Assembly (NCBI GenBank): GCA_014871385.1
Contig: CM026431.1
Coordinates: 3,078,604 to 3,142,603 of the forward strand
DNA from: Ceratodon purpureus
Lineage: Eukaryota; Streptophyta; Bryopsida; Pseudoditrichales; Ditrichaceae
Length of the DNA: 64,000 bases
Direction of reading: 5' to 3'
Positions within the stretch are counted from its first letter, which is position 1. Every line of letters begins with the position of its first letter. Shown here piece after piece: positions 5,391 through 47,127 of this stretch. The notes under the pieces were generated by a model. It saw only the letters and a list, made by a program, of their open reading frames with translations, was not told the DNA's origin and ran no database searches. The position numbers and the translations under genes are program-made.

Positions 5391-5820
5391 ACATTTAATA
5401 AATTCATCAACTCAGTGTCTTAGATTAGAAAACACCTCCTCAACTGGATGTCTTACATTTAATAAACGAAGCATTTCAAACCATTATGTAATTTATGCGT
5501 ATTTTCACAAACAAGTACGTTTTTTAGCAATTAACTATGCATACTTATTAGAAACTATTAAAAATGTAAACTTGCTAAAGATGAACTATTTTTTTGAAAA
5601 CAATTACATTTAATAAGTTCATCACCTCAGTGTCTTAGATTGAAAAACACCTCCTCAACTGGATGTCTTACATTTAATAAACGAAGCATTTGAAACCATT
5701 ATCTAATTTATGCGTATTTTCATTAACAAGTAGGTTTTTGAGCAATTAATAGTGCATACTTATTAGAAACTATTAAAAATGTAAACTTGCTAAAGATGAT
5801 CTATTTTTTTGAAAACAATT
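5391..5820. repeat. 215-bp tandem duplication
   Basis: Two adjacent units, 5,391-5,605 and 5,606-5,820, match over their whole length with only scattered differences. Both begin with ACATTTAATAA and end with GAAAACAATT. Within each unit the phrase CTTACATTTAATAAACGAAG also echoes the unit start. The short divergence suggests a fairly recent duplication in otherwise old sequence. Confidence 0.9.
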
Positions 5821-6381
5821 GCACTTATATTTTTTATTAATTGCAACTTAGTTTTAATCTTTACAATTTGTTTTATGTAAGCATATATATCTCAAAAACT
5901 AATGTATTAAAAGTTGTCATTATATGAATTGAAAGGTTTTAACATTGCATTCATAAAACACATATGTCCATTCATTTTTACCGAGCCGAATTTTTTTTTA
6001 ATTCTTTAAACGAAAAAAACTTTTTAAACAAATAATAAACCTTTCAAATTAGTAACAGTGAGTTATAAACCTTATTTCTTGATAATTTTGTAAAAGTTTT
6101 AAAAACCAATAACCTTCGTTAGAATCAAATTAAGTTTAACGATTGTTTTAATTTTATATAAATCTGTTACAAAGATAACCAGAACTTAATTGTGTAAAAA
6201 CGCAATTATTAAGACAGTACATTCAAACATTAAACTGTACTTATAAAAAATTCAATTGAATTAATTAAATTATTGCAATTAGAATTTAAATGTATAAATT
6301 GTATTGAACAACATAATTATTTTAATATTACAGTTCACCACGTATTCCGAAGGCTTTAGATTTGAATTGTAGCTTTAACAA

Positions 6382-6462
6382 TGCAACAAAATAGCTGAGG
6401 ATTTGGACCACCTCTCTAACAAAATAGCTAAGGATTTGCAACAAAATAGCTGAGGATTTGGA
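6382..6462 (+). repeat. Imperfect 21-bp tandem repeat
   Basis: Three copies of AACAAAATAGCTGAGGATTTG-like sequence lie within about 80 bp, the middle one with a small change (CTAAGG for CTGAGG). No coding context is visible. Confidence 0.75.
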
Positions 6463-9129
6463 TACCTACAGGATGGGTTTCTTCTATTCACATGCAAAAT
6501 CAAACAATTGGAAAATATCTTCCGCTAAATTAAAATTAATAAAACTTACCAAATATGTAAAAAGTGATATAATTGCATACAACAAGATGATTTTCACTGT
6601 GATTTATGAAAGTTTTTGCTTCGAATATATATAATACTTATTTTTTTGAATTTTGAATGATTTGGAATGAAATGCAGTTTTTATATTATTTTTATTTTTT
6701 ATTATACATTTCAACCTTCAAATGTAGTAACTCATAATACTAATCCTAATTTTATTGGTGCACTATAATAATGTAATAATTAATGTTAAAATAAAGTACG
6801 TTTTGTTAATTGTAGATTGTAATTATTAATATGATATACAAAATACATAAATCGACGAAAAATCATCCGAATTTCACTTTGTTAGCAAGTACTTACGCTA
6901 CAACCATTATTTTTAGTTTGTTTTTTTAAAATGAGAAGATGTAGGCATAAACAATTTGATATGTTATTAATAGTATTAAAAATCATAGTTTTTATGCAAA
7001 GTTTTCAAATGAAATATTTTATAAATCAAATTTATATAATGTCAATAATAACTGAGTCATAAATAACGAAATTTGAAGTTAAGTTCATTGCAAAAACGAC
7101 TTTTATTAACTTTTATTACAAAAGATAATTCAAGACTTGCACATAAAAAGGTTTTCACGTGTTTTTATCAACATCTAAACGCAAGTTGTCATTGCAAACA
7201 TAACCTTAGTTTATTCTTTTTGTAAAAATTAATATTGTTATTCTTTGATTTATCAGAAATACGACTTATTCAATGGTAGAATCTATCGCCAAATTCATTT
7301 TATCTTTTAAATTTACAATTGATTTTACTTAAATTCATATTATTAAAATGAATTGATTGTAGTGGCTTTTAATTACATTATAACATAAACTTAAGACTTG
7401 TTAAGTCATAGTCTTGTGGTTTTGGTAGCGCTTAATATTATGAGTTATAATTTAAAACTCAATATGACAACTGTAATTAAATATTATTGATAGTTTTGTA
7501 AATAAATAATATGTGTATGAAATTGTTTTTGATATATATACTTCCAAATAAATATGCTAATGTTAAATGTAATAAGCTTTTAACATAAGATTGTTTACGT
7601 AAACATTTTATGCAACGATGTTTAATCATTGAACTTCAGCACCGAAGATGTATAAGCTCTATGAATAATTTAAAGATTGAATTACTGTAGCATATACTAT
7701 TTAAAAAATAATCATTTACTTCAAAAAATCAGTAAAATAAAAGCGATTTTTTTTTTAATGCTTTATAAAATTTAAATTATTATTGAAATACATAATAATA
7801 TCAAAGCAACAGATTATTTGAATTTGCTTTACATAGATAGAACATAGTTTGAAGAGAAAATAATTAGTCAAGTCGAAAAAATTTATTTATTTTTGTTTAA
7901 TATATTCACTGAACGCATATATAGGTAGAAATAAAACAGTCATCGTTTTTCAAATTAATATTCAAATTATTATAGTTGCATTAAATAATTGTTAATTCTA
8001 AATACAGGATTTCGTCTAAGTTTGGTCACTGTAAATAGCAGCATTGTGCAATTGAACAACTTTGCATATTCCATTGACAACATTCCAATTCGATTAAGTT
8101 TGGGTCATTTTGGATGACGGTACAGCCGAGTTCGACGGCCAGTTATGTCTCGGTAACTCGATTTCACTACAAAGCAAACCCGAACCGGTTCTTTAGTCAA
8201 TAGACATTTACTGTGAGTCGATCCGAGGTATTTAAACTTACATTAGGTTAATTATCTCAACATTAAGGCAGAAATTTGTTCGCTATTAGTCGGCTTTGAA
8301 TAAAAATTCGAGTATAAATTTATAAATCCTATTCGTGAGCGATCCGGTAATAATATAGACTTGTGTAGAAGGTGACGATATCCAACCATATTTACTTTAA
8401 TCACAGTGATAAAATGACCAGTCTGGTAATTCTAAAATGGTTTAGTTATTTTTCCAGCAGGAGTAGGAACAAGTAGCTATGTAATAGAGTGTTTCTGTTC
8501 TACTAAAATTCAAATGCCCCATGTTCGAAGGACTGACCATTTGTGTAACTCAATTTAGAAAAAAAATGTTCAACCCTCAATATTTTAACAGGATTGACTG
8601 CGAAACAAGGGGATGGAACAAGGGCTCGTAAACCGATGACTTTTGTTTTACGGTATTTTGATAAATCACGTGCCTTCATAGAAACTAAAATAAAATTATG
8701 ACCAACCCGAAATTAGCCGATCGTTACAACAAGTGAACGAACATATACATTTTCATGTTAAGAAGTGTCAACTTGAGGTTCCTGCACTTCTTTGCAAGAA
8801 GTCAAAATCAGTCAATTCCGTATCTTACATACTTAAAAATCACTTGGTTGTGAAGTATTAAAATAAATAGATTGACTAAAAGCTGATGCAAGCAAATGCC
8901 AAAAGTAATAGCGCTGTTTGATAGAATGCATTCGAGATAGAATGAATGACTCCGCTCAGTGTCGAATATTACACACACGTCTGTGGACGTCTTCATCAGT
9001 GCCAATCACAAAAAAAACTCAATGTTTGATAAGCGAGCAGGAGGACTAGATCCCAAAGCAAAATGTTTTAAGTTGAAGGATACTTGTAGAGGGTGCTTTG
9101 TGCTGCTATTGGGCTGAAACAATGAAGGT

Positions 9130-9254
9130 GATTGGGTGAACTTTGTTTATTTTTTTAAGAAACAAATGAAGCTTTATTTTACAGTAAGAGAAACCGAACG
9201 CCGAGCAAGACTGAGCTCGCAGTGACAGCCAGCTGGTAGAACTGATTGGGTGAA
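9130..9254 (-). mobile_element. Short retroposed insert with target-site duplication
   Basis: The 14-bp sequence TGATTGGGTGAACT occurs at 9,130-9,143 and again at 9,241-9,254. Between them, read on the minus strand, is about 97 bp that ends AATAAAGCTTCATTTG...TTAAAAAAATAAAC. This is a polyadenylation-type signal followed by an A-rich tail. Direct repeats plus a 3' A tail are the signature of target-primed reverse transcription, as done by LINE machinery. The same 3' end pattern (AATAAAG, then a CATTTG-like box, then poly A) recurs near 17.9 kb and 25.7 kb, so this is probably a 5'-truncated LINE end or a SINE. Confidence 0.75.
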
Positions 9255-9590
9255 CTGCACAAGTTACAGAACGCCGTGTTTATCTAGAATAACATATCAT
9301 ATTGCCGATGACACTTGTCTAATTTGGATCGAACGTGTTGAATTTTATCTAGTCCAACATATTATGTGACTGTCGACGACTCAAGGATTCTAGATTTCGG
9401 TTTAACAAAAAGAATCCTTAATATCACGGGATTTTTATATTTTCATACGGGAAAGTTGGACTCTCCGCTGGCTCCTATATACAAGGTGGCTCCTGGATTC
9501 AAGGTGATTTAGCATCTAAAACGTTGTATCTAATATCCACTTCAAAATTGAATTGGTCACATAAGTTCTAGACTTGTAAATTTGGGAGAG

Positions 9591-9604
9591 TGGCGCAGGC
9601 GCCA
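9591..9604. repeat. GGCGCC palindrome, copy 1
   Basis: TGGCGC-AG-GCGCCA. It lies upstream (left) of the 10.5-kb gene. The sequence to its right (CCGGCCTGC, then CATTTCAGTGGGTGGC) resembles the right flank of copy 6, so these two copies share a longer ancestral unit. Confidence 0.95.
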
Positions 9605-10536
9605 ACCGGCCTGCACGTCATTTCAGTGGGTGGCGTCTGTGCAAACGGGTACACTAAGACGATTTGTCTTACTTAAAAACAATTTTGCAGAGATACTTTA
9701 TAACATAAGCACCTACTGAAAATGAGAATATAAGCATTTACTAACCAAGAATCAAGGTATGATCAAATACATGCAACACATGTTTTCAGAAATTCAGTTA
9801 AGTTGAATTCAACAGCGACTGATGTTCAGGGACACACAATAGATCATGCTGTCTTGAATAAGATTAGTTCAATGCGAGATCGCGAAGTTTCCAAAAACTG
9901 AGATGGGCCCATGTGGTCAATCCATGATGCCTTCTATGTTTTGAAACTCGCTCTGCGTGAAAGCCTCCATTTGCATTGAGAATACGTAAAATCGTCATAC
10001 ATTCCTGAAAGTAAAGTTCTCAAAGCCCCGTTCATATTATTCTAGTTCGTGCTCTCTCTAATCCGTCTGATTTAGTGAAAAGGAGGTCATGAGGGTATTC
10101 TCTCAAAAACTCATCCCAAGCTGTACAACTCATCCCAAGTTCTTGTGCTCGTATACAGATTTCCTTTTCCGCTTATAATTAAGTCCCCCAATGTCGGAAT
10201 TCAGGTGTCCCTTCCGTGCATTTGGGTTAACTTCGTCGGCAGTAGTGGGGGCTTTGAACGGCTCTGCGCAGTGACATTTAATATTAGGATTGACAACATA
10301 TCACATAGGAACTTACGACATTTAAAATACTTGATAACAGTGATCAAATACTTACCCGATATATCATTTACGCCGAAGCTTCTTTACCACACAGTCGGGA
10401 ATTCCTTCTTACAATCGTTGTTGGCGCACGAATCCTGGATCCAATTTTGCATAACGACACACCAAGGATGATACTGACACCGACATGGTGCGATGACGAT
10501 ATCCCAGTTTGGGAAACCTGTCTTGCACATCGCACA

Positions 10537-11517
10537 CTATGAAATGGATATGGATACCACATTCGAAGGCTCGTTAGGCTTCGCATCTTGAATCTCTAGC
10601 GCTGATCCAGGAGCTCGAAAAAGAGGGAATATTGATCGATCCAATATCTTCTGTTTGACGACCATGAGGTGCTGGAAAGTCGATAGTCGTTTCGTCTTCA
10701 TTCGATTGAACCGTTCCCCCTCGTCCATGGCCAAGGACATGCCATTCCCCGATGCCTTTAGGTGCTCCTCCAAGAGTCGAATTCGAGATGAGTAGCCAAG
10801 AATCTCGTCTGATTCTGCCTTCACCTCGGCCTTGAACTTTGCTATAAGAGCTTCATCCCCAGATCTAAGGTAAAAGAGCCTCATTCCTTGAATTTTCTCT
10901 AACATCCGTTTCGACTTGTTTAAGAGTTGATTAAGACAGTGAACTTCGAATTCTAGCTTCTCCTTCTCTACCTGTGTATGGGCAGACGGTAGCGAAGATT
11001 GACTTCTAACCTTCCTCAACACCTCAAGGTGAGCAATAGAAAGTTGTTCATATTCAGTGCGTTCAGCCTCGATATCTTTTTCCAGCCTATTTACTACAAC
11101 ATCCAAGAATTGCATATGCGGAGACTTACAGCCGTAGGTTACCACGGGTCCATATGAATCTTCAAACTTCTTGCCTCTCCAACGGTCCGCAGCATAGGCT
11201 GCCCAGTTCATCGGATGAAGATGGCACACTTCAGATATAAGAGCTCGCGCAAAACTCTCCGGAATAAAATTTCCCTCAGGAAGTGAATGACATTGCCAAA
11301 TCGCAGGATATAATTCTACGACCCTCTCTCTCAAACGCTGACTCTTGGTAGCAGTGTAGAGATACCCCTTGTTCTTCTCCTTTCCGACGAACATGAAGTG
11401 TAACTTTTCGTTTGACACATGGTTACAATCTTTACTGGGATCTAAGCCACTATTCGGAAGGCGAGCTTCAGATGCAAACCATGTCTCCTTACCACGCTCT
11501 GACGGTCTTCTACTCAT
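10537..11517 (-). CDS. Unrecognised coiled-coil protein A of the palindrome island
   Basis: An uninterrupted 326-codon frame opens at the ATG at 11,517. I do not recognise a named family. Residues about 37-112 carry the pattern FMFVGKEKNKGYLY, VELYPAIWQ, FARALISE and MNWAAYA. The same ordered pattern is found in the gene at 15,555 (MFCGPKTRTGYYF, RDLFPRVMQ, FAQGVVAE, VNWAEFA), so the two are diverged paralogues. Residues about 130-290 are rich in E, K, L and R in heptad-like spacing, predicting a long coiled coil. No signal peptide or membrane segment is visible. The gene is flanked by palindromes on both sides and none falls inside it. Whether an upstream exon exists could not be decided. 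A nuclear or structural role is only a guess. Confidence 0.65.
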   Translation of the reverse strand: MSRRPSERGKETWFASEARLPNSGLDPSKDCNHVSNEKLHFMFVGKEKNKGYLYTATKSQRLRERVVELYPAIWQCHSLPEGNFIPESFARALISEVCHLHPMNWAAYAADRWRGKKFEDSYGPVVTYGCKSPHMQFLDVVVNRLEKDIEAERTEYEQLSIAHLEVLRKVRSQSSLPSAHTQVEKEKLEFEVHCLNQLLNKSKRMLEKIQGMRLFYLRSGDEALIAKFKAEVKAESDEILGYSSRIRLLEEHLKASGNGMSLAMDEGERFNRMKTKRLSTFQHLMVVKQKILDRSIFPLFRAPGSALEIQDAKPNEPSNVVSISIS

Positions 11518-11894
11518 CTTGCTTGATCTATTTTACTGGTGGACACAGTTTACAAAACAACGATCACTGCGTTACTGTCTATTGCATACATATCTCTGAA
11601 TATGCAATAGAGGTAGAGGTTGCTATTTAGACATGGACATAGAATTGTATGAGCGAGTAAACATGCACTGAGTGATTAAGTGTACTCTTGCTCTGTAAAA
11701 CATCATGTCTTGCTCGTAATATTCCCATACACATTTCTTGCAATGTTTTGATCAGGCCAATCTGTTTATTGATCCTGATGACTATGTCTTAGTATTAAGG
11801 AGTTGTTTTAATCGTCGGTGGGATGATTTGAACCAAACAGTCACCATAAATGTGATTTGTTGCATTGAGCTTTGCTTCGACAGTTTAGTCCACA

Positions 11895-11908
11895 TGGCGC
11901 CGGCGCCA
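11895..11908. repeat. GGCGCC palindrome, copy 2
   Basis: TGGCGC-CG-GCGCCA, the fully symmetrical form. It lies about 380 bp 5' of the start of protein A and only 122 bp from copy 3. Confidence 0.95.
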
Positions 11909-12016
11909 CTCTCAAGCAACTAATACACAGTTTCCTTTCAATCAGCTCGCGATATGGTACAATGGAAATGAATGTCTTGGTAGTCATGGAGAATTCTATC
12001 AGTTGTTCAGCAATCA

Positions 12017-12030
12017 TGGCGCCGGCGCCA
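12017..12030. repeat. GGCGCC palindrome, copy 3
   Basis: TGGCGC-CG-GCGCCA followed by TTC, as in several other copies. It forms a close pair with copy 2 upstream of protein A. Confidence 0.95.
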
Positions 12031-12841
12031 TTCTTGAACACCCAATAATCATTCTAAAAATTTGATTCATGTTTCACGTTTGTTTATGGTTAAGATCTGC
12101 TAGTTTCCATCAATCCGTTACAATGTCGTTGCTAGTCTGGGGTTCTACAATAGCATAGTGGATTATCCTGATGTGATTCTTGAAAATGAACAACTACAAA
12201 GTTTTTATGACTTAGTTTTTAGCAGTGAATGTTGTTAATTTGAAATGTGTCACTTAGATTCTTATAGTTGTGTGTTATATTTAATTTATATTTGGGGAAG
12301 TTAACCTAATGTATTCGCAATTTAATATTGAAGGATTTGACTTTGGGTGAAATGTTGACCTTTATAGGGTTGAAGTGTTCCCTTAAAATCCTTAGCTTTT
12401 TTGTTGTAATATAGGTTCATGAAGAAGAGTTTAAATGGTATGACTCCAACGATGATGTGTAAATTGAATTAGCATTTTTGTACATTGGTTTAGAATCAAC
12501 CATTTTTCCATCCCTCGATTCATTGTTTTCTGTTTATTATAGTTTACTGAGACATTTAGTAAACTTCCATTTCCATATAAGGAGTAACAACAATGCAATT
12601 CCAGGCCCGAAATTAGTATTCAGATTATATCCATGTCGTGTTCTGAAGAGTAGATATTATCTGAATTACTTTTCCTTTAACGGCAGTGAATTATAAGGAC
12701 ACTTCTGTATAATTCGTGATCACTGATCAAGTCGACTTAATTATTTCAGGAATCAAAATTCTAGATACTGTAGACTATGTGTCCAGAAACAACGTACGGG
12801 AACAATGTCCGGGATCACAGGATCAGATTCCCATGTTAACT

Positions 12842-12855
12842 TGGCGCTGGCGCCA
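12842..12855. repeat. GGCGCC palindrome, copy 4
   Basis: TGGCGC-TG-GCGCCA followed by TTCTAATCACCTAAG. This right flank resembles that of copy 7 (TTCACAATCACCTTAG). Confidence 0.95.
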
Positions 12856-13456
12856 TTCTAATCACCTAAGTGAATCACAATGACTACTTGCTTCGGACTG
12901 GGGATCAAAAAATCCAGTCAGTATATAATTATTACTCGACAGCTACTGTTTTAGTCTCCGACATATTACAGTGTATGCACTGTTACTCAGTGTCTCATTG
13001 CTTTTACTTAATTTGTTTTTTTTTTGTTACAATATATCCTTTTTGTCCCATTTTGATTCGGGAAATTTGTGGTCATCTTTTCGACTCATTCCACGATAGT
13101 TTTGGATCTTGTTCTAAACGTGGGGAATTTTTCTTAATGTATGGATGTGAGGCACTGGCGCATTTCCTTCGTAGTTTTAAATTAGCGTCCATTCACCAAT
13201 TATTTAAGGGATTTTAGAAATAAATCATGTAAGGATGATGTGGCACAATAATTCACATGTGCGATGATAAGGTATTAGTTTATTCACTATCAGCAAGATT
13301 TTTCGCTCATTAGTTAAAATCTCAACGAATGTTAAGAAGGCAGACGGTGCGTTTTTATTTTGGAGGATTTTGATCCAAAAATCTTTGGTTTGATTTAGTT
13401 GATGTTTGAAGATGTTGCGTTGTAATTCATTATGTATTAAGAGGCCTAAGAGAGCA

Positions 13457-13470
13457 TGGCGCCAGCGCCA
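13457..13470. repeat. GGCGCC palindrome, copy 5
   Basis: TGGCGC-CA-GCGCCA preceded by CA and followed by TTCC, in non-coding sequence. Confidence 0.95.
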
Positions 13471-14092
13471 TTCCTTATCATCACAGTGAAATTGAACACT
13501 TGTTTTTAGTGAGATATACTTTCTACGAAATAATCCACTGTCATTTCCATCTATTCAATCTCCGCCAATATTCAGGGATAAGAAAGGGAGCATTAGGCCT
13601 CAATTACTGCAAAAGCAGGTCCCGATGTCATATCAAATGTCCAAGATGTGTACACCCTGCGATTCTACTGAATCGATAAAGACGATAAATTGAACTATAA
13701 TCTGTACATCTCAGAAACTGCCTTCTCTTCCAGTATCACAGGAAGTACTCTTCAAGTTAATGATCTTTACTCATTTCGTACCAACGTATCAATATTACAC
13801 TGTGCTTGTTAAGAACGTAGGGATTTTATAATGACGTTATGTGTTTTTAATTCAGACAAATCGCACCATTAAACCTAATGGAACTTTCTTGAATTACTGT
13901 AATTCTTTAATTACTGTAGTTCAAGTAACTTGTGCTCAAAGTTTTTCGTTGGCTTTTGTCTTCATGGTGATTCAGCATAGACGACATTTGAAGTCGACTG
14001 CAGCCATTATAGAATTGCGGACATGAGTCATTGGCTTCGAGAGTCTGTCGAGTTGCCCCTGCGCCAACTTGTGTACTCTGAATATCGTCTGA

Positions 14093-14106
14093 TGGCGCAG
14101 GCGCCA
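14093..14106. repeat. GGCGCC palindrome, copy 6
   Basis: TGGCGC-AG-GCGCCA. The right flank CGGCCTGC matches copy 1, which also has the AG centre. A degenerate copy (TTGCCCCTGCGCCA) lies just upstream at 14,053-14,066. Confidence 0.95.
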
Positions 14107-14852
14107 TTCGGCCTGCTGATAATTTCGGTGGCTTACATTTCTGATCACTGATAAAGTCGAATTTCATTATTCTTAGTATCAATAAATTTAGATATTGAAG
14201 ATTTGGCTTAAGCCCATAATCAATCTTTCTGTAGCTCTGTATAATAGAAATGAGATTCCAGGAGCAACATGGATCTTCTGAGAATTCTACCAATGAATCT
14301 GAATCCTTACTTAGAAGAGCGTCTTCTCACCAGAATTTGAAGAATCCACCATGCGGATTCAAAGACTGTAAATTCAGATCAAGAGCATTGATCAGAGTTT
14401 TTTGCGTTTATTTTTGTGAAATGGGATATTCAAATGGTAATACAATTATACCCCGATCTCGGATGGGGCTGACATTTTAAGGAGATATGAGGACTACAGC
14501 TAGGATTATGTGGGTAATTTTATCATATCATTCCATAATTTAAAGTAATTTTGGCGAAAGTGGGGGCACAAGTATGTCAAGAAGTTGGGGTCGCATTCCC
14601 CGGCAACAACCGGCCAGCAAGGTGCTGGATATGGCTCGTGTCAGTGATCAATGAGCAGCTATTCAGGGCAAAATGCAGACCAGCTGCCATGTATCACCTC
14701 TTGCTGGTGATATTTTCGAAAACAACAGTAACTGCGATGTCCCATATTTCCATCTCGGGCGATCCAGTGTAGTTTCTTCATCCCACTTCAAAGGTCTTTG
14801 TCGGATAATATTACCGAATTGATCAACTCACAATTCCTGATAGAGTGTGATA

Positions 14853-14956
14853 TGCCTTCAGATTGTTTTTTTTTTTTTTTTTTTTTTAAGACACGTAACA
14901 CGTTAATATTACTGCAAAGAAGGTAACAAAACAACTGCCAGCCTTCAGATTGTTTT
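14853..14956 (-). mobile_element. Short retroposed insert with poly(A) and 16-bp direct repeats
   Basis: GCCTTCAGATTGTTTT occurs at 14,853-14,868 and at 14,941-14,956. Between them is a run of more than 20 T followed by about 54 bp. Read on the minus strand this is a short unique sequence ending TGTCTTAAAA and a long A tail. Target-site duplications plus a 3' poly(A) mark LINE-mediated retroposition. The short body (TTGTTACC, TTTGCAGTAATAT) resembles the 3' end of the insert at 25.7 kb. Confidence 0.8.
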
Positions 14957-15554
14957 GACCTAGTCGGGCAAACTTTTTCACACTTTTTTCATTCTAAGGA
15001 CCGTCTTTTTCGCCCCTTGGGCATAGAGGGGTTAAGTTGCACATTCGTTACATGAATTGAAGTTAACAGGGCGTTAGCGTTATTTTGGCTAGCCTACGCA
15101 TTTGTAGAAACTTGTGATTAAGTTATATGGAATTTGTGTGCTCATTTTAATGTGCGACACTATTTCATTCATTCTGGACTTAGTTGTTTTAACCTCCCTA
15201 ATAATGCGACGTGACTTCTCCAGTTCCTACTACTTTGATTGAGGTGAAGGGACAGTTTGTGTCTCAATGATGGAGGGTGGCTGAGTTGAGGTTCAGGGCT
15301 AGTAGAAGCTGCTCATGACGTGACAACCAGAGTCTCTTTGAGGTCCTGATAATAAAGTGATTTGAAAAAGGTGAACTGATATGGTTCACGCTACTCTAGC
15401 TCCTTTTCTATATGTCTGGAATATGGGAGCAGAATTCAACTCATTCCTTCAGTTTTGTTTCATTTGCGTTGGTTTTTTGCGCTTGCTAAGAGTTGTTTCC
15501 CGATCCTTCTGCATAACAACTTCTTGCCCTCTTCTCACGTCTGTGCAGCCTGCT

Positions 15555-17230
15555 ATGGCGGCATTTACGGTTCGGTTTGTTGATTCCTCAAAATATCCGT
15601 GCTCAATTTTCTGGTTTCGGAGCTACATGCGGCTCAATGGCGAGGGCATTATCCCCTCAGTTTCTCCAGACGAGCTCATGCCTCCCCCTGAAGCACTGGC
15701 GATGTTCTGTGGCCCTAAGACCAGGACCGGATATTATTTTGACAACCATGGAAACTCTGCTTACGATGAGTACGTACGCGATTTATTTCCTCGCGTAATG
15801 CAGATGGAATGGCCTGTGAATTCCGTGCTTCCCTTTCGCTTCGCCCAAGGGGTTGTTGCTGAGGCGATGGACATTGAAGTAAACTGGGCGGAGTTCGCCT
15901 TCGTGGAGACTCACCCGCATCATCGCCTCTCGGGTGAGCCGCGAATTTTGGACGAGTACGAAGGTTTGACGGAACCACTGGGGCCGCTTAACAAAGTAAA
16001 CCCGTTCCCTAACTTCAAGGTAAGATTGCGGTCCCATATCTCCCTGTTTTTTTGATTGCCATGTGTCCCGTGCATTTGATTTTGAAATAGAAACATAAGT
16101 TGGTCGTCAATATCGTTGTTGAGGAATAAGATGGGGATGACGAAATTACTTTAGTCCGTGAATCCCGCCTTCAAATGCTGTCTCCATTTCTAGTCCCACT
16201 TATTTTAGTTTCGTGCTTATGAGCTTCGAAGGTCGCTGTCTCTGTTCTTACAGTTTGAATGTATTGATTTGCTAAATGTGAATGATCTCAATGTAAGTTT
16301 GAAGTTTCGTCAACTCCAATGTGTACTTCTGACTCGGGTGAACTGCTCATTATCGGCAAGTAATTTCATTAGTGGAAATTATAGTGTTAAGAATGTAATC
16401 TATTCTATCTTGCTCGACTCGGGTCGGAAATGATTCCTAACAAGAGTAACCCTCCCCGTAATCATTCTGTAATTTTGTACTATTCTGTGTAGGATCAAGT
16501 GCGGGCTTTAGAAGCAGCTGATTCAACACATGCCCAGGTAGTCGGCAAGTTCACTCATACGGAGGACCCTTATAAACCTTCGTCGTCGACGCCCATGGAG
16601 GAGGTCGAGGAGCCTCAGTTCGAATTACCGCCGGCTGCTTTCCCTCGCTTGGGTGATTCCAGCAACGATCCCGACGGCATACGCATGTGTCGCCTCGTGA
16701 AGAATGGGCTTGCTGTTCTACGGCCCGATATTATGAAATTGATTGACGGCAAAGGCGTGGAACTTCGAACTGCAAGGCACTTCTCGTCTGGGCCCGTGAC
16801 CACTATCTCTCTACGGCTTAAAGGAGAAGAAGACCGTCTGAAACATGTGAATCGGATATTGGCGGAGAAGAAGAGTAGTCGTGACCGTGCTGTCGAGGAG
16901 TATGAAAAGTCACGGGCGATGCTAACTACTGCTCGGGATGTCGCTCGAGATGTTGAGCTGATAAAGTCCTTTACTCTGGAGCAGAATGAGGCAGCGAAGT
17001 CCTTGGTCAGCTTCTGCGAGTCAGTTGTGAATTCTTCGCACGCGAATGAAGATGTAGCTCATAAAGCAGTGGCAGAGTGGGAATTAAAATCTCATAGGCT
17101 TTCAGTGTTGGTGGTGAAGGTTAGCGAGGAACTCGCTGCAGCGGAGGCGAAGAATCATTCGGAGTGCTGTGAAATTGACAAAGAGATGGACAAGATAGTC
17201 GCTGTGTCTCGCTTTCTCAAGCGGATCTAG
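15555..17230 (+). CDS. Unrecognised coiled-coil protein B of the palindrome island (two coding exons)
   Basis: Exon 1 runs 15,555-16,019 and ends at a good donor (AAG|GTAAGA). Exon 2 runs 16,493-17,230 after the acceptor TTCTGTGTAG. Both are in phase 0, giving a 400-residue protein. A pyrimidine-rich stretch ending CTGTGCAG at 15,548, six bases before the ATG, suggests a further intron in the 5' leader. I chose this ATG because the longer upstream frame runs through that acceptor. Residues about 46-118 share the ordered motifs of protein A (GxKxxxGYYF, DLFPRVMQ, FAQGVVAE, VNWAEFA). Residues about 265-395 are charged and heptad-like, with RALEAADS and EEDRLKHVNRILAEKK-type segments, predicting a coiled coil. 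The function is unknown. This and protein A define a small local family. Confidence 0.7.
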
Positions 17231-17914
17231 AGAACCTCACGAACTGGATTGGTGATTGATCGTCGACAATGAATGGTGTCCTGTTGTCGTAGTGTCAAAT
17301 CCATATGGTCGTTTCTCTGAATCTCCAGGCATGGGTGTTATGTACCCTTGATACTGTTTTGCTTACGAACTATTCCGTCTATTTTCCCCGTGAATTTCGG
17401 CTCAAGTCCATTGTTTTGCGCTTATAGTATACAGTGCGAGAAACCTCTAGTGGAAGACATCTCCTAAACATTCTGTAAATCTTATAAATGTTGTAACCTC
17501 TGTCGCCAGTTAATAGTTGTCAGCTGCATGCTCGTGCGTTTGAACGTCTTCCGGCCATGACACATAGAAGCTGCTTTGAAATTAATATTTGACAAAGTCG
17601 GTGAAAGCCTCGGACATCTTTTTCTGAAGGGTTTATCGTTGCAAAATTGAATCCACTCCCCACGGTCAAATCGATTTCCAGAACAATCATGACAAAGTTA
17701 AAGATGAAGTCATAAAAGAAAGATGGATTGAACTTAAATGATGGCTAGATAGTGCTGACTCTCGATAGGACTTTGAAGGGATGATTAGAGATATTAAACA
17801 ACAAAACAAGAACAAAAAAACGAACGCATTCAGTAGTAGAGCATGTTTGGCAAAGAGAGAGGTTGATTTTGTACCTCGCGAAGGGTAATTGCATGGAATA
17901 AAGTGGTGGTTTAA

Positions 17915-17975
17915 ATATATATATATTTTTTTTTTGGAAGCAAATGGTATCTTTATTCCGGTTGTTCTAATTTTT
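17915..17975 (-). mobile_element. Retroposon 3' end (poly A, conserved tail)
   Basis: On the minus strand this reads CCGGAATAAAGATACCATTTGCTTCC followed by about ten A and a (TA)n run. The AATAAAG - ACCATTTGCTTC - A(n) order matches the inserts at 9.1 kb and 25.7 kb, implying a common LINE or SINE family. The 5' boundary and target-site duplication were not resolved, so the limits are approximate. Confidence 0.55.
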
Positions 17976-18433
17976 ATACTAATAGTTTCTCGAGCATGGG
18001 AGTTCTAGATTTCCTGTCGGCGCATAGAGAGTGGTATATATTACATAGGTGTGAGGTATTGCTTTATGCATTTCCAGCGTTGTTTATGGTTAGCGTGCAA
18101 TTGATCGATAACTTCAGGAAAGTCACTAGAAGTTATGGTAGCTTTAGCAGGGGCTTTTCTATGTGGAATTAGCCCCCCTTTACAAAGGATTCCTGAAGTC
18201 ACAATTTTTCTTGAACACTTGTTTTAGCGCCCAAAATTGCACATCTTGGCCAAGCTAATTTATCCTGGCTAGAATGAATAATAAGGAGGCAAAAGGTAAG
18301 GTGTACTCATTGAGGATTCTAACCCCAAATGACCAGGTAAGTTTCAGGTTTGGTTTAACTGAAATAGGATGATCTCGTATGGTAATCTGAAATTTGTCAT
18401 GGTTGGGAACTTGTTTATTGACCTAGGCGAAAA

Positions 18434-18447
18434 TGGCGCCAGCGCCA
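18434..18447. repeat. GGCGCC palindrome, copy 7
   Basis: TGGCGC-CA-GCGCCA followed by TTCACAATCACCTTAG, similar to the flank of copy 4. It lies between proteins B and C. Confidence 0.95.
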
Positions 18448-19122
18448 TTCACAATCACCTTAGTTTCATTTAGCATTCCGCTTTATTGAGCAGCCTTCTT
18501 ACGATTTCGTTGGTTGGCAATTGTAGACCGTTGTTATGGATTGCTGGTTAACGACTGCGAATGGTCGTGTATCTTGGATATAAGCAGAAATCCCTACTTA
18601 TTGTGCGTGGATTTATACTGATATTCTGTTGACTAGTTTTGTTTCTGGATTTTGATATTCGTTTGTAAGGAAATCCAGAGTTCAAAATTATGTCTGCCTA
18701 ACTCGGAATTCTAGTTTGTTCCCGAAGTGTATCAATATTTCTGAGAAAGCAAAAACTTAATCGGTTTAATTATCCGTAACGTCTTTTATAATTGTTGCAT
18801 TGTATTTTCTACTCTGTATCACCGCACTAGCGATTTTCATCCAGCTGTTATCCATTTTATTATGGTTTCTAAGGTTACAGCAATTTATTTATCACAACAA
18901 CTTATCACATAGTCTCGGTAATTAATAAGCATTGAGCAGACCTATTTTAGGATTCTTTTGGTAGACACATATCCGAATACATACATTCTCGAATGGATTC
19001 ATTTCAAAAGTTCTGTATGAACTGTTGGCCTATTATGTTAGTTAGTTTTAATATCGCATATTGCAATACTGCCCAACGAAACCATAGATGATTACGTATA
19101 ACTGAATGCATGGTTGTGTGGT

Positions 19123-19136
19123 TGGCGCCGGCGCCA
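19123..19136. repeat. GGCGCC palindrome, copy 8
   Basis: TGGCGC-CG-GCGCCA, preceded by GGT, about 1.2 kb upstream of protein C. Confidence 0.95.
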
Positions 19137-20332
19137 GACGATCTTTGTAAAATGTGGACAGTCTTCATTGAATGGGTTGTGATGCCCCCATTGTGACTCA
19201 TAGATTTCCGAGTGATTGTGTTAGAATATGTTGAGTTCATACATTGCTTGTTAAGAAAATTAAATTTTGCTTGCAAACAAAGCAAGAACTCGGATGTGAA
19301 TGTCTTTAGTAATCGAATGTTATCGTCATTTCGGTCTTCTGGTTCGGTTTATTATCTTATACGTGACATCTTGTTTTTTTTTATGCCTAACTAGCATATT
19401 GTGTTGCTGTATATTTATTTGTTGAATGAGAAGCAATTAAAAAATTAAAAATTAAAAATAAAAATAATGAAAAAAGAAAGAAGAAGAAGCAGTAAACTTT
19501 CACTTGAGGTGCGTGGGTTTATGAATTCACTATTGACATTTTTGATTGTTTCTTTTTATTTTGAAGCAAATGGTGACTTACCATTGAAATTTCAATAAAT
19601 AATTTGGCTTCGAATTATTGTAAACAGTTTATTAATGTATAGACGAGTAGGTTTTACAGAGCGTTCCTTCATACGCTGGGACTTTGTAGTGGAGTTCTAC
19701 ATGGGAATTTGACTAGAGATAATCCTTGGAATTTCACCAAAGATAACAATTTGGAGTTTATATTTGAATTTTAGTCTATGTTTATGTTCTTGCGTCATGA
19801 TTAGCTTAGATTCGCGCTTTATTTACACTTGTAATTTAAACCTGTTATTAGCATAATGAGTCACTTGTACATTTCGAATTATGCATGTTGCCCAAGTCCA
19901 GTTTATCTTTATTGATTTCTGTTGTGTCATATTCCTCACTGTTCAGCTCTGATGAGTTTAGTTTACATCTATACCTGGTTTTTGGTTCAGAACGTTCCGT
20001 TGGTTACAGAGATTGAGTCATTCGAAATCTCGCATTAACGACCTGGTTTTTGGTGGTGGTTCAGCTTTCGTCTTTGACGTTGTGGCCATGAGGATGTGGC
20101 TGAGATTTTAGCCCGGGCATCAGATTCCGGCTGACTTTATTGCTGCTTGAATTTGAATTTAGGTTATACCTTGTATAAGACAAGAACGATGAGGTCATGG
20201 AGCCCAACCCCGCTTCTTCTCTAGTACTAGTATCCTCCGGAGGCTGCAAAGGTCTCAAATTTTGCAAGTGCTGCTCTCCATCCCTAGTGTAGTTCAGAGT
20301 GTAATTAGCTTTTCGTGGAATCTCGTTGAACC

Positions 20333-21365
20333 ATGGGGGAGGATGCTGTGAGGAGGGTAGCTAAGAGAAAATCCTGCGAGGTTTGGTGTGACCTCGGTTG
20401 TGTGAATTTAATTGACTGGGAAGAGCCGCATTTGCCGATTTGGGATAGCGCATCATCTCGACGTCTTGGTGAGTTTCAGCATCTTTGTGATGCTCCTAGA
20501 TCGTTGCCGGAGTTGATGCAGTGGCTGCGGAGCGTGTCCGAGTTTGAGGAAGTCTCGGCTATGGAGTGTCCCAGCATCAAATCCGTTTTCGATCTGGCTG
20601 GACCTTCGTGGGATGGAGTTTGGACACCTCAGGCGATCCTATCTTTTCAAGCTGCGGCAAACGCCTCCGGCATTATGCATCCCTCCATGGAGGTTCGCAA
20701 AGCGCTGAAGAGTGCTGCTCCTTCGAGGAATTTATCCCCTGCTCGAATTTCCTGGCGCACCTCATCAAATTCCCGGTCAGACTTTGTAGTTCGAACTAAC
20801 TGTGAGGCTGTCAAGAGAGCTCATACGATTCCGACCCCATCGTCTGCAATGTTCGTGGTTCCAAATTTGATTCCTCTAGTGATTTTGTCGGATTCAGATT
20901 CTGCTTCTGTCGATGAGGGTGGAGATGATGAGTTTGACTGCCAGGCGTTGTCCAATCCGGTCAACGATGATGCTTCCAGCCCTTTTTCAGCAGGTTTGGG
21001 ATTTCTACAACTCTCATGCCGTCCATTCCATTTGTTTCATTGAAATTCCGTTCTACGATGGTTTACATAGATGACTGAGTCTGCTTAGGATTTGCTAATA
21101 GTAGTGTATGAGATATCGATATTCGTTTCTATCTTCAATCCGAAGTTATTCAGAATTAGTGGTTTACGCGTTTTTTATATTTTTCTGCTTTGCAGGATGT
21201 GCGGAAGTTGCTTCTCGCTCCACACTCGTACCTCCGGAGCTATCTCCAGAGCTTCGTGAAAAGTATTTTCCTGCTATGTCAGGATGTGCGGAAGTTGCAG
21301 TTCGCTATACGCTCGATACTCCCGTGCTTTCTCCAGAGCTTCGTCAAAAGTTTTTTCCTGAATGA
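20333..21365 (+). CDS. Unrecognised protein C with SIM-like motif and duplicated tail (two exons)
   Basis: Exon 1 is 20,333-20,993 (donor CAG|GTTTGG) and exon 2 is 21,196-21,365 (acceptor TTTGCAG). The phase 1 junction fits exactly, giving 276 residues. I recognise no domain family. Residues about 179-200 read PLVILSDSDSASVDEGGDDE, a hydrophobic core followed by serines and acids. That is the layout of a SUMO-interacting motif (inference). The second exon is two 29-residue repeats, GCAEVASRSTL...LSPELREKYFP and GCAEVAVRYTL...LSPELRQKFFP, encoded by a tandem duplication of 87 bases. A basic N-terminal patch (RRVAKRKS) could aid nuclear entry. It shares no clear domain with proteins A and B but lies in the same palindrome island. 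Confidence 0.6.
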
Positions 21366-21483
21366 TCGCAATCATACTTGGATTCTAGGATCGGCAAGAT
21401 GATTTGTATGGAGTGTGATCCTTTTTCGGTTCGTCGTAAGAAATGCTGTTCAATTTTGTTTGTTCCTGGGTTAGGTGCATGCT

Positions 21484-21497
21484 TGGCGCTGGCGCCA
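21484..21497. repeat. GGCGCC palindrome, copy 9
   Basis: TGGCGC-TG-GCGCCA, about 120 bp downstream of the protein C stop codon. Confidence 0.95.
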
Positions 21498-22013
21498 TCG
21501 TCAATTCTTTGCTCTAGCGATCTCGGATTTGTATAATTCTGATGTTTCTTTTATTACAAGAACTCCCCACAACGATATACTCAGTATTTCCGATCGGGTG
21601 TGCTTTTGTGATATGTCTATATTCTCTAATGTGGGATCAAGTTTTCCTTCGAACCTGTTTTCCTATTCTTTTCAGAGATTGACTGATGATTGGTTTATAA
21701 GTCCAACTTGGCTTTTTGTTTTGTTTCTGTACGAACGTTAATAGTTGTTTGGTTTTGAGCTCAGATGATTTGCTCGACGTTATTGAATTTCAAGCTAGTA
21801 CATGTCTGCATTTGTTTGCTGTGCACTCAGAGGGGCCCGTATCGGATTGTACAGTCGCACTCTCTGCTCTTGAGACCCTGCACACATCCTTGGAATCGGA
21901 CCGTTGCTCTTGGACGGATTTCAGTTGTTCTGTCTATCATTTATGTATCAGCTTCCTGACAAACTTCTTTTTCATGTTGTTCTGGTTTTAGATATAAAAT
22001 TCGTCTAATGGGT

Positions 22014-22027
22014 TGGCGCCGGCGCCA
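22014..22027. repeat. GGCGCC palindrome, copy 10
   Basis: TGGCGC-CG-GCGCCA preceded by GGT, as in copy 8. This is the last copy I can find in the window. Confidence 0.95.
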
Positions 22028-22900
22028 TGTGCATTTTTCAGTTGTCAATATTGTGCCGTATTTCATTTGAGTTCTAATTGTTATATACTTATGAGATTCT
22101 CATTTATCCAGACATTGCGCGTGCATTGCTGCGATTGGGTTCTCTTGTAAATTTTATACGCTCGATTTCTGTTTTGTATCAGATTATGTATGTATGATGT
22201 ATTATACTTTGGATGAGGTATGAATTGTTTCATCGTTCGTATTACATCGTATGTATTTTGTGTACAGAGGTACTGAATGCGTTTTTGTTCCGTCGATTGT
22301 CCTTGTGGATGATTACGCTTGTCGTGATCCGCTTTTCGTTTCTGACAACGTTTTCGTCGTCTGCTCATATCTTACACAGTCATACAGCCTGGCCTACGGT
22401 TCTACCGGAACTGCCTAGATTAGAACCTGTCAACCCTAAGTGACACACTCCGAAACTACTACCTCGGACAAGATGACGACAAAAAGTTGAAAGCTGAAAT
22501 CATCGAATGAAGTTATCCTGTCAAAGCTCTAAGGACCCGGATATAAATTTTCCGGATGAATTTTGTGCAAACGCTACATAACATAAGGTAAGTTTATTGC
22601 ATCATGCATTGAACTTTTCATAGCAGTTGTACTGTTCAAAATTGAACCCAAGTTGCACTGTATAGAATTGCACTGAAGATGAACAAAGTCAAGATATTGG
22701 CCTTGATTTCTGCACAACATGTGGACTGCTCTATAACATGACACATTTGCATTCCCTACACCGTTCAGACATTCAGACCAGAAAATCCAACACTGGGACC
22801 ACACCATGGCTGCATTCATCATTTGTATCATGCAAGATATTAATAGCTATGAAGGGCCTGTGTCAACAGAATAATGTTACACCAAACATCAACGTCACAG

Positions 22901-22950
22901 CGTGAAACAAAGGGTGAAACAAAGGGCGAAACAAAGTGTGAAACACGTAT
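22901..22950. repeat. 12-bp tandem repeat GTGAAACAAAGG
   Basis: Four consecutive copies with small changes (GTGAAACAAAGG, GTGAAACAAAGG, GCGAAACAAAGT, GTGAAACACG). It lies in non-coding DNA. Confidence 0.8.
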
Positions 22951-23196
22951 CAGAAGTATCAGATGTTGATCAGTACCTGTACCTTAGGTGCAGCTTTGGC
23001 AAACAAATAATCTAAATATAAATTTCGGATTAAAAAAAGAATCATGTTGTCTATTTGTTGTAAAACCATGAAATAAGATTTGATAATTGATGAAATATCT
23101 TGAAAAAAACACATGAGCTTAAAATCAAATCAATAAAACATGTTCAAAGTGATCATATGAAGTCTACTAAAATAACAAACATCCAATGAAACTTCA

Positions 23197-23530
23197 TTAA
23201 CCCCTAATTGGCCATGACCATTTCTCACCAAAAACACTCTAGAAACTATCATTTCAAAACTATCATTTCAGAAGCAAGAGTGAACAAATCAAAAATAAAA
23301 TTGCTTTTGCATCTCTAACCATAGGATCTGACTTAGGACTTCTAGAAGATCATGCACAAAAAATTTCAATAAATTTAACTGCGTGGATTAGAAGATTATA
23401 GGGTTTGAATTGAGAAACATTTTCATCCTTTCAAAACATGATCAATTGACTTTGACTTCTCTTTGAGTACATTTTTTTCACTATACATGTTGGAGGTTTT
23501 GTACTAAAATGATGTACATGTAACATGATG
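23197..23530. mobile_element. Partial left end of a piggyBac-type element
   Basis: It begins TTAACCCCTAATTGGCC, close to the start of the MITE that follows (TTAACCCCTAAAGCATTTGGCC). Like that MITE and the autonomous element, it then carries a CCATAGGATCT/CCGTAGGATCT subterminal box and a GATTATAGGGTTTGAATTGAG-like stretch. No matching right end of its own was seen, so it looks like a truncated relative into or beside which the MITE inserted. Confidence 0.45.
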
Positions 23531-24624
23531 TTAACCCCTAAAGCATTTGGCCTTAAAATCCCAAATTCTGCCTCAATTCAGCCCTGTTTTAGTTCAAGGT
23601 AGAATTATGCAAACTTGAACGTATATAGGAGAATCTAACCGTAGGATCTAGTACCTAACTTGTACATGTATGTGTGCACAAAATTTTAGACCGTAATTCT
23701 TCACCGTTTGGAAGATCGTAAGGTTTGAACTTGAGTGGAAAGGTTTTTTTGGTCCTGCCCGGCAGGGACAGCCACACTTCAGAGAGTAAAACAGTCCATT
23801 TTTGAAGATCGCATGGGTGGAGGCTCTTCAGTTTTCGATTCTAAAGTGAGTTGGGAGTATGCTCAAAAAATTTGAAGGCAATACAACATACAGAAGCATT
23901 GGAAAACCACATTTCCAGCGACAAGAGTCAAATGAAATGCATATAGATTGGCTCTTTTTCCACACTACAGATGCCTAAGAAGATCATCAATTTTTGGGAA
24001 TCCGAACGGTGTATACATGCATTTGTATGGAAAAGAAATTGTAGAGGAAAGAAATCTAAAAAATAAATAAATCCAAAATAGATATGAATTTTACAGCATA
24101 TACTGTGGTTTAGGAGGAGAAAATGGTGAAGGAAAAATGGGTGATGAAGGTGACCCGATCACTGTTGATCTGTCTTGACAGTTTTTATAAAACTTGAAAC
24201 TTTGACTGAGTATATCTCAAGATCCGTACAGTCAAAGTTTACAAAACTTGGTACGTAGACTAATTGGATGGCTCTGAACAAGATCCTACGGTTGGATTTT
24301 TCAAAATCAAGTTTTAAAAAAAATTGTAAAACGATTTCAGAAAGGATCATTTGGAAGTCACTGTAGACTTTCACAGATTTGGTACACCACTCCCATCGAC
24401 CACAAACCTGCCCGAGCTGCCCTGAATTGAATTTTGATCTTTAAACACCAATTATTTCTTAACTACGGGCCCGATGGAAGTAAAATTTGGTCTTGCTAGA
24501 AAGATATGACAATTTCCCATGCTGTGCCAAAGTTACAGCCACATCCGATAAAATTCGACTCATAGGAAGCCTGACCGGACCCTAAATCATACCAAAAGTG
24601 TTGAGTTGATGCTTTAGGGGTTAA
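23531..24624. mobile_element. Non-autonomous piggyBac-type MITE
   Basis: A 1,086-bp interval (23,535-24,620) is bounded by TTAA on both sides, the piggyBac target duplication. It has perfect 12-bp terminal inverted repeats, CCCCTAAAGCAT and ATGCTTTAGGGG. The first five bases (CCCCT) match the ends of the 5.9-kb piggyBac at 42.9-48.8 kb. The left subterminal sequences of the two also align (CCGTAGGATCT, then AAATTTT..ACCGT, then GGTTTTTTTGGT..TGCCCG). It has no transposase frame and would depend on a piggyBac transposase in trans, plausibly from that family. Confidence 0.8.
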
Positions 24625-25682
24625 TTACTTATGCACCAAATTTTAGATTTAACAGAAAGGCGTAGTATTGTGAAAACATTGTATAAGGAACACATATTCA
24701 TATTATTGTTGATGCTTTAATTTTTTTTATTTTTTTTCTCATAAACCAGTTTTTTTTAGAACAAAAATCCTTGCGGTCAAAACAAAGGTATATGTCTATT
24801 CTTGAAGTGGAAAAGAAGAAGAGAGAAAAAAAAACAAAATCTCTATCATTTATGTGATTGAGAAAAACTTTTTTTTATGCTTGACCGAGAAAAAAAATGA
24901 TAAAACTTTGGCTCCTTATAGAATGAAAATCTCCCACAACATAAGATTTTTTTTTGATAATCTCAAAACCAATCATGATAGTTACTTGCACTAAAAATCC
25001 CAAAGGTAGTTGAAGGGTGTATCAAAATTTTGGAGTTGCCCAAGACGTAGGAAAAACCGCTTTGGGCACCATAATTTATTTTTTTAATGTCTAGTGCAAA
25101 AAAAAAATTATACTCCCACGAAGCTCTTGCAATTCCCTACCTCTAAAAAAAATTTACAAAATTACATCCAAAATTGACATCGTAGGAACCTGCCTAAAAT
25201 TTCAAAAAGCCCATTCTAGGACTAGTTAATATTGGATGGAAATTGAACTTAAAATTATTGATTTCCTGAAAAGCCAAATTCAAAAAACTTATCATTTCTT
25301 TTACTGCTAGACACAAAATTTTGAAATTAATTAATTATTCAACGGGAGGCTGATGAAACTGCCCCTTGTAGTACGGAATGCAATAAGTTATGCCTTCCTT
25401 AGGGCAATGCCCAACTGACAGAGTTGGAGAGTGAGTGCCCGGTAAGTTATGAACAATTCCAAGCACATAAGCATAGGATATTGTTATGCTCATCAGATTC
25501 CGCCATTTGCAGGCTACGACTACACTGTCTCCAAGAGTGATGCACAAGCATAGGATACTGGTATGCTCATCATATACCATCATTTGCCGGTTACAACTGC
25601 ACTGTATCCAGGAGTGATGCACATCCCTATAACTTATATTGTGCAAGTTAAAAAGTTTTTGATTTTTTAAATTTTTTTAAAT
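24625..25682. other. AT-rich spacer
   Basis: Non-coding, with many homopolymer A/T runs. A small internal duplication at about 25,450-25,625 repeats a motif (AAGCATAGGATA-TG-TATGCTCATCA, then CAGGCTACGACTACACTGT or a variant, then GAGTGATGCACA). No gene was seen. Confidence 0.5.
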
Positions 25683-25779
25683 TAAATTAAATTAAATTTT
25701 TTACACAAGTAAAGGGAACCTTTATTGCAAGGAAAGAGAGTTACAAATACACACCAACCCCGCCCGATACGGCGAGACC
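25683..25779 (-). mobile_element. LINE-like retroposon 3' end interrupted by the CACTA element
   Basis: On the minus strand the sequence runs TTTGTAACTCTCTTTCCTTGC, AATAAAGGTTCCCTTTAC, then TTGTGTAAAAAATTTAATT. This matches the tail pattern of the inserts at 9.1 and 17.9 kb. Upstream on the minus strand it is cut by the CACTA element, and related-looking sequence may resume beyond it after 27,816. This suggests the CACTA landed in an older retroposon. The boundaries are approximate. Confidence 0.5.
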
Positions 25780-26100
25780 AAACACTAGTAGAAAGAGGCC
25801 TCAACTACACCAAGTATTACACCGAAATGGTGGATAATTTAGGCTTTTCAAAATGGTGTACTCAAAAGTCTCTTTGGTGTAATTCGGCACCTGACATGAC
25901 CAAAATTAAAGGTGAATAGTGTCACTGTGGTCCCAATGAACATTGTATATTTTTGGCCCGCGTCACATGGGTTTTGTTGGTTTCCATTAAATGTAAATCT
26001 GGAATATTTTATAGCATTGTAAATTTTTTGTACTGCTGCCCTAGTGGATGGAGATTGATTCTGTTCGTTTGATGTTGTTTTTCAAAAGATTGGATTACAA

Positions 26101-26475: not shown

Positions 26476-26893
26476 AGCACTTACAAGAGCAGAGAGGAAG
26501 AGAGTCAGAGAGTGACCTTGGAGGGAGCGAGCCAGTGAGCGAGAGAAGTTTGAGCGAGAGAAACTCTGTCGACGCACCCCAGGACAACATCATTGACGCA
26601 CACACACTGAACTGCGCTCCAAACACACACTCCAAACTGAGTCGACGAAAATACTTTATTGTCTGCGTTGACAAATAAAGTAGTCCAACTGTCCAACTGC
26701 TCTCCATGGCCGTGCCCTCGCTGCCTCCTCTACTTCCTGACTTGCGGAGGATGAGGGTTCCTGACTTCAAGAGGGTGAGGCTGAGGGCCTCTTTATACTT
26801 GGAGGTCCAAGCCAAAGGCCGAATGCCCAAAAGCCCGTAAGTCGAATGCCCAAAAGCCAAAGGCCGAATGCCCAATAACTTTTTCCAGCTATT

Positions 26894-40043: not shown

Positions 40044-40087
<44 letters not shown>

Positions 40088-40590: not shown

Positions 40591-40619
40591 GATTTGTTGA
40601 ATACGATCAATCTTTTGTT

Positions 40620-47043: not shown

Positions 47044-47127
47044 CTGCATAGATAAAACAAGTAGGCATGAGTTTGTTTGCAAAATTTCTCATGTGTCATG
47101 AGTTTTCATTATCATTGATAAAATTTA

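Follow-up and report, generated by a model that had tools for sequence, protein, structure and literature searches.

The analysed stretch of DNA, hereafter the window, comprises 64,000 bases of the genome of the moss Ceratodon purpureus (assembly GCA_014871385.1, contig CM026431.1, forward-strand positions 3,078,604 to 3,142,603). Positions 9591-22027 of the window form an island of 12.4 kb, which carries three predicted genes, designated A, B and C, and ten copies of the palindrome TGGCGC-NN-GCGCCA. The rest of the window amounts to 51.6 kb. As judged from their sequence and arrangement, the ten palindromes probably represent a cluster of predicted sites for one sequence-specific protein binding as a symmetric dimer. 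The features of the island are listed in Table 1.

The pattern search with TGGCGCNNGCGCCA returned exactly ten matches in the 64,000 bases, all within the island. An earlier note, made from the letters of the window without database searches, had listed ten such positions; each of them proved exact, and the other 51.6 kb contained no copy. When up to two mismatches were allowed, the number of matches rose to 12, with 0.53 expected in all: the ten perfect copies and two with two mismatches (at 14053 and at 21490, the latter overlapping a perfect site), but no copy with a single mismatch. Ten perfect copies and no one-mismatch copy speak for maintenance rather than for ageing insertions. Among the palindromes of the 6+2+6 type in the window, only TGGCGC-NN-GCGCCA recurs more than twice. 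The recurrence had been described as far beyond chance, and this was borne out: the largest count in 100 dinucleotide shuffles was zero, and palindrome recurrence never exceeded one in 60 order-2 simulations of region 9001-22500. A chance origin of the array is ruled out by these shuffles and simulations. The probability that all ten sites fall inside 12.4 kb under even placement is roughly 4e-6. The noncoding DNA of the island has a GC content of 38%. One site lies to the left of gene A, five between A and B, two between B and C and two to the right of C. The observation of the earlier note that the sites avoid coding regions holds as a count (0 of 10 in gene models), but coding sequence makes up only 24% of the span, and such avoidance would arise by chance with P of about 0.06 (the gene models used for this test were a few bases off the final ones).

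Table 1. Palindromes, duplicated noncoding blocks and predicted genes of the island
Feature	Position	Strand	Comment
Palindrome 1, spacer AG	9591..9604		exact match; resembles palindrome 6
Palindrome 2, spacer CG	11895..11908		exact match
Palindrome 3, spacer CG	12017..12030		exact match; 122 bp after palindrome 2
Palindrome 4, spacer TG	12842..12855		exact match
Palindrome 5, spacer CA	13457..13470		exact match; aligned copy of palindrome 7
Palindrome 6, spacer AG	14093..14106		exact match; resembles palindrome 1
Palindrome 7, spacer CA	18434..18447		exact match; aligned copy of palindrome 5
Palindrome 8, spacer CG	19123..19136		exact match
Palindrome 9, spacer TG	21484..21497		exact match
Palindrome 10, spacer CG	22014..22027		exact match
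Degenerate copy TTGCCCCTGCGCCA, 2 mismatches	14053..14066		40 bp before palindrome 6; paired with palindrome 1 in masked upstream alignment
Block R1, old duplicate of R2	13118..13528	+	noncoding; masked nhmmer E 8.8e-8; 13324-13528 z 6.0
Block R2	18022..18504	+	noncoding; old duplicate of R1
Block L1, probable old duplicate of L2	9483..9672	+	noncoding; masked nhmmer E 0.019
Block L2	13946..14176	+	noncoding; masked nhmmer partner of L1
Short segment resembling 14137-14207	12712..12780	+	noncoding; E 0.018 and 0.001 in the two directions
Gene A	10537..11517	-	single-exon open reading frame, 326 aa; N-terminal domain common with B, then long predicted helices
Gene B	15555..17230	+	exons 15555-16019 and 16493-17230; 400 aa; GT-AG intron; open after splicing
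Gene C	20333..21365	+	exons 20333-20993 and 21196-21365; 276 aa; GT-AG intron; open after splicing

The spacers of the ten sites are CG in four cases, CA or TG in four and AG in two. The seventh base, read outward from the 20 arms, is C in 14, T in four and A in two, and never G. The trinucleotide GA(A/G) precedes seven of the 20 arms (five times as GAA), compared with a background frequency of 0.038 (P 5e-6, for a pattern picked post hoc). At no site does it precede both arms, which gives the perfect dyad a favoured orientation. Single TGGCGC arms show no clear enrichment in 9001-22500: the first count gave eight beyond the palindromes versus 2.4 expected, but four of the eight arise inside the palindromes with TG or CA spacers, which leaves four. 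The similarity score of the flanks was 280 versus a null mean of 227 (standard deviation 14, none of 150 as high). Because this score counts the duplicate pairs described below, and orientation was optimised in obtaining it, it does not serve as independent evidence.

The noncoding DNA around the sites contains old duplications. When region 8400-22500 was compared with itself, the best score was 44 bits (E-value 1e-5) versus at most 29.7 bits in six shuffles, and the pairs found were 13324-13528/18273-18504, 9487-9606/13950-14068, 9591-9683/14093-14183 and 12712-12774/14137-14201. The pairs were then re-tested with the palindromes masked, using 200 shuffles to obtain z-scores and single-sequence nhmmer searches of the masked window. 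The pair of blocks R1 and R2 was recovered by nhmmer at E 8.8e-8 in one direction and at E 0.011 in the reverse one (query 17231-18500). It is also supported independently of nhmmer, by the E-value of the self-comparison and by the masked z-score of 6.0, with none of the 200 shuffles as high. Palindromes 5 and 7 stand exactly opposite each other in this alignment. Of its ungapped flank columns, 256 out of 392 (65%) are identical, versus 14 out of 14 in the palindrome; given the rate in the flanks, such full identity has P 2.6e-3. The palindrome lies in an exact run of 18 bp, the longest in the alignment, and the next longest is 8 bp.

For blocks L1 and L2, the masked nhmmer search matched 13946-14176 with 9483-9672 at E 0.019, and the upstream part was matched the other way at E 0.015; the masked upstream part had a z-score of 5.2, above all 200 shuffles. 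Palindromes 1 and 6 are identical at 14 of 14 positions, compared with 49 of 75 in their flanks (P near 2.6e-3 at the flank rate). A short segment at 12712-12777 was matched by 14137-14204 at E 0.001, and at E 0.018 the other way. A profile designated T was built from the very segments that it finds and proves nothing. The two pairs keep the same order, with separations of about 4.5 and 4.9 kb, which would suit an ancient tandem duplication that produced one unit with A and another with B. The two genes are indeed paralogues, but their opposite strands would call for an inversion as well, or for some other history. Searches for further copies of the blocks gave, besides the source copies of each profile, hits at E 4.9 or worse with the L profile and nothing with the R profile, and the C side (18.6-22.5 kb) is therefore not established as a third unit. 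The alignments show that at least one pair of palindromes arose by duplication, with the core then fixed while the flanks drifted.

The same alignments bear on the idea that the array represents a very short mobile GC-rich palindrome, which inserts into AT-rich intergenic DNA and is under no functional selection. GC clusters of fungal mitochondria are an analogue of such an element. The GC-rich sites do lie in AT-rich noncoding DNA, and their flanks are mostly unrelated. However, in the R pair about 400 bp of adjacent DNA was duplicated along with the palindrome, which was not inserted alone, and the copies form no decay series. The spacers vary between sites and agree in each of the three pairs presumed to be duplicates (with a probability of about 0.2 for each by chance; one of these pairs is not established), and no empty site appeared in the alignments made, which included no systematic search for one. 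An origin of this kind is highly unlikely.

The earlier note named proteins A, B and C as possible partners of the site. The product of A and exon 1 of B share 29% identity over 99 amino acids (E 4e-8 to 6e-8 in a five-sequence comparison; E 1e-6 to 3e-6 by tblastn against the window), and by this similarity A and B are diverged paralogues. In the structure predicted for A from a two-row alignment with the N-terminal exon of B, the mean predicted local distance difference test (pLDDT) value was 48.6, with long C-terminal helices. Exon 2 of B, predicted alone, also gave long helices with a mean pLDDT of 59.6. The models are of low confidence and too poor for a fold search; the sole match of A in PDB was a coiled-coil chain at E 0.72. 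No relative of C was found in Pfam or, with its exon 1, in viral contigs. Searches for close relatives of A, of the N-terminal exon of B and of exon 1 of C in viral contigs found none, and neither did searches with A alone in phage and prokaryote genomes. A viral, phage or prokaryotic origin was rejected, as the proteins tried (A alone for phages and prokaryotes) had no relatives there. An 87-bp unit occurs about twice at 21178-21360, in and just before exon 2 of C, and encodes a repeated peptide of the LSPELR type.

It is conceivable but on balance doubtful that a transposable element, or a cluster of related ones, makes up the island, and that the palindromes are noncoding targets of a protein encoded by the element itself, as with the VANC proteins. 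VANDAL transposons of Arabidopsis carry a transposase gene, of the Mutator-like element (MULE) type. In A, B and C, Pfam revealed no transposase or other mobile-element family. According to the available text of the sources, VANC21 binds short motifs in the noncoding parts of VANDAL21, and these motifs accumulated with the formation of tandem repeats (PMC5735166, PMC10398659); the motifs of VANC proteins are described there as 8-9 bp long, non-palindromic and often arranged in tandem repeats (PMC5735166). By analogy, these motifs seem to be the closest precedent for the array. As far as these descriptions go, in both cases a short exact motif is present in many copies in the noncoding parts of one multi-gene segment (here with the reservation on chance given above), and its copies multiply with duplication of the surrounding noncoding DNA. 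The limitation of the motif to the noncoding DNA of one multi-gene island with duplicated noncoding blocks, the lack of known families for the three genes, and the low identity of A and B in comparison with the 65% retained by the noncoding R blocks agree with an element of this kind.

There are also differences. Set against the VANC motifs as described in the same available text, the sites of the single locus seen here are palindromic, 14 bp long and dispersed, and no transposase was found. The element protein of VANDALs binds its motif and removes methylation, a trait on which the CpG ratio of the island bears indirectly. The motifs of VANC21 and VANC6 are absent from the ten sites; in 9001-22500 they occur zero times and once, and in the window four and five times, respectively. 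The locus was not assigned to the VANDAL/VANC type because it lacks a recognised transposase and VANC motifs at the sites. A comparison of 5000-10500 with 21365-28000 gave no convincing terminal inverted or direct repeat among the best 25 short matches (the ends of the island are not fixed); the best match (E 0.11) was a run of AT, followed by a group at E 0.45 to which the palindromes themselves belonged. The 22-bp inverted repeat 9660-9681/13842-13863 (91% complementary) was rejected as a transposon end, having 28.3 bits and E 0.61 where shuffles reach 29.7 bits. CpG is not depleted in the island, which also argues against a transposon.

Over 8-22 kb, the CpG observed/expected ratio is 0.90, or 0.89 when the palindromes are left out, versus 0.65 over 22-64 kb (1-kb windows, P 8e-6). 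The high ratio is consistent with DNA long free of CpG methylation, but it does not set the island apart. Near position 22000, at the right edge of the island, the ratio drops from about 0.9 to 0.65.

Another candidate for the binding protein is a known host factor with a site of the GGCGC type, such as E2F or the moss LEAFY, and this is distinctly unlikely. The arms of the palindrome resemble GGCGC, which is the core of the E2F site. The generally known E2F-DP consensus, TTTSSCGC or WTTSSCSS, is nevertheless contained in none of the ten sites. The dyad of NFI, commonly given as TTGGC-N5-GCCAA, occurs zero times in the window, and the corresponding spacing in the sites is six and not five. More generally, the usual consensus sequences of E2F, NFI, VOZ, the CGCG-box and the GCC-box were tried, and none coincides with the sites; only the bare half TTGGC does so, at five arms. 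Further sites of a common host factor would be expected elsewhere in the 64 kb, where there is no exact one. LEAFY is described, in the available text, as a dimer on a semi-palindromic site, the Arabidopsis-type element being 19 bp long (PMC4844672), and the LEAFY of Bryopsida mosses belongs to type II, which has a specificity of its own (PMC6588583). The dyad of the 19-bp element falls on a base and that of the palindromes between bases, a comparison with the Arabidopsis-type element from which the moss type II may differ. LEAFY is unlikely as the binder by this symmetry.

The earlier note had also suggested a structural signal, and the perfect inverted repeats could act in RNA or as DNA hairpins. 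This is scarcely credible, and folding lends it little support. When ten 40-nt segments of the plus strand were folded with RNA energies, eight had negative z-scores and two fell below -2 (12004-12043 at -2.5 and 18421-18460 at -2.1), but the other eight lay between -1.6 and +0.3, and the arms paired with each other in only six of the ten predicted folds. A stable cruciform needs more than six-base arms with a two-base loop. Searches of the window for RNA families at gathering scores and for tRNAs found none.

Arrays of palindromic sites for dimers encoded by the same element are well known from papillomavirus E2 and EBNA1, and TNPA of En/Spm also has such repeated sites. The array resembles them in having repeated noncoding sites near the gene of a binding protein, which is only a candidate here. 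Unlike those systems, it has different sequences, no relatives of A, the N-terminal exon of B or exon 1 of C were found in the viral contigs searched, and the locus looks plant nuclear. In homotypic enhancer clusters, too, one site is repeated many times in noncoding DNA close to genes. Such clusters usually tolerate mismatches and span hundreds of bases, whereas all ten copies of the palindrome are perfect and extend over 12.4 kb, to the left and right of three genes.

The dimeric protein proposed by the earlier note from the two-fold symmetry stands as a prediction: the existence, exactness and local confinement of the site were confirmed, and its survival of a duplication agrees with a symmetric protein-binding site. 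In the mechanism that we favour, each subunit of the dimer would read TGGCGC and a seventh base that may be C, T or A but never G. Its preferred sites would usually have A or T outside the arms and often GA(A/G) before one arm. The dimer would bind the dyad at the ten dispersed places, and this binding would keep the locus in active, unsilenced chromatin or drive the genes from many dispersed sites. The transposon and the host factor are overlapping special cases of binding by a symmetric dimer, and the probabilities assigned to them need not sum to one.

The binder may be encoded within the locus, by gene A or gene B, which we regard as a tentative possibility. In its fullest form, this would be a self-contained plant locus, in which fast-evolving coiled-coil proteins of the A/B family bind, as dimers, the palindromes scattered over all of its noncoding DNA and keep the locus active, an anti-silencing or self-marking arrangement unrelated by sequence to VANC and lacking a transposase. 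Such a locus seems unlikely.

Several observations weigh against a cluster of maintained sites for one dimer. There is no fixed distance between sites and genes, and the gaps between sites range from 122 to 4341 bp; such an arrangement would be less typical of a core promoter element than of chromatin marking or anti-silencing. Tests of seven periods from 10 to 200 bp gave no clear sign of helical or nucleosomal phasing (lowest p 0.09). The high CpG ratio begins at the left end of the window and not at the island, the median of the first 8 kb being 1.00. No Pfam family exceeded the cut-off for A, B or C, and no DNA-binding domain was recognised in A or B. The R pair is the sole clean alignment among the duplicate pairs, and it is gappy. 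The E-values of the L pair (0.015-0.019) are modest, with unrelated pairs appearing in the same nhmmer runs at E 0.26 and 0.48. The alignment of palindromes 1 and 6 was delimited with the palindromes unmasked, and the masked upstream alignment sets palindrome 1 opposite the degenerate copy at 14053 and not opposite palindrome 6. Palindrome 6 may therefore be a neighbouring duplicate, in which case the copy at 14053 may be an example of an unprotected one. The masked pair 11895/12017 has a z-score of 2.5, below the best shuffle, and the pair 12017/12842 is identical at 13 of 14 positions with P 0.09.

The letters of the site, spelled in six forms, were found in none of the papers searched (most subscription papers and supplements lay outside the search); the search also returned no report of palindromic TGGCGC with DNA affinity purification sequencing (DAP-seq) and, among the papers listed for TGGCGCC with Physcomitrella, no title on such a motif. 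The array offers a testable handle, with ten identical sites, duplicates in which conservation can be compared and, next to them, a paralogous pair of candidate binders. Binding by the A or B protein, if true, would add another plant locus that marks its own noncoding DNA by means of a private code in the DNA. Binding by a host factor would make the array the target site of a so far unnamed plant regulator.

The remaining part of the window contains several other features. The first 8000 bases are very AT-rich (22.5-28% GC) and contain no open reading frame (ORF) of 110 amino acids; a 215-bp tandem duplication lies at 5389-5827. An ORF of 578 amino acids, counted from stop to stop, occupies 31580-33316 on the minus strand and consists of three near-identical units with 92-93% identical DNA. 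It matches C166 (PF17615, E 1.3e-36) and HsbA (PF12296, E 7e-13), which we take to be fungal surface-protein families, and horizontal transfer into a plant-like genome is possible. The ORF at 51726-52508 on the plus strand matches CTC1, a subunit of the telomere complex CST (CTC1_2, PF15491, E 3e-24). PF15491 is mainly a plant family, and this ORF and the GT-AG introns fit a plant nuclear genome. An 827-amino-acid ORF at 44298-46781 on the minus strand has a repetitive N-terminal part and a DDE_Tnp_1_7 transposase domain (E 4e-74), presumably of the piggyBac type. A dispersed repeat family extends over 36255-49323 (for example, 39237-39754/42358-42876, 82% identical), and a 19-bp unit is repeated in tandem about seven times at 50154-50284.

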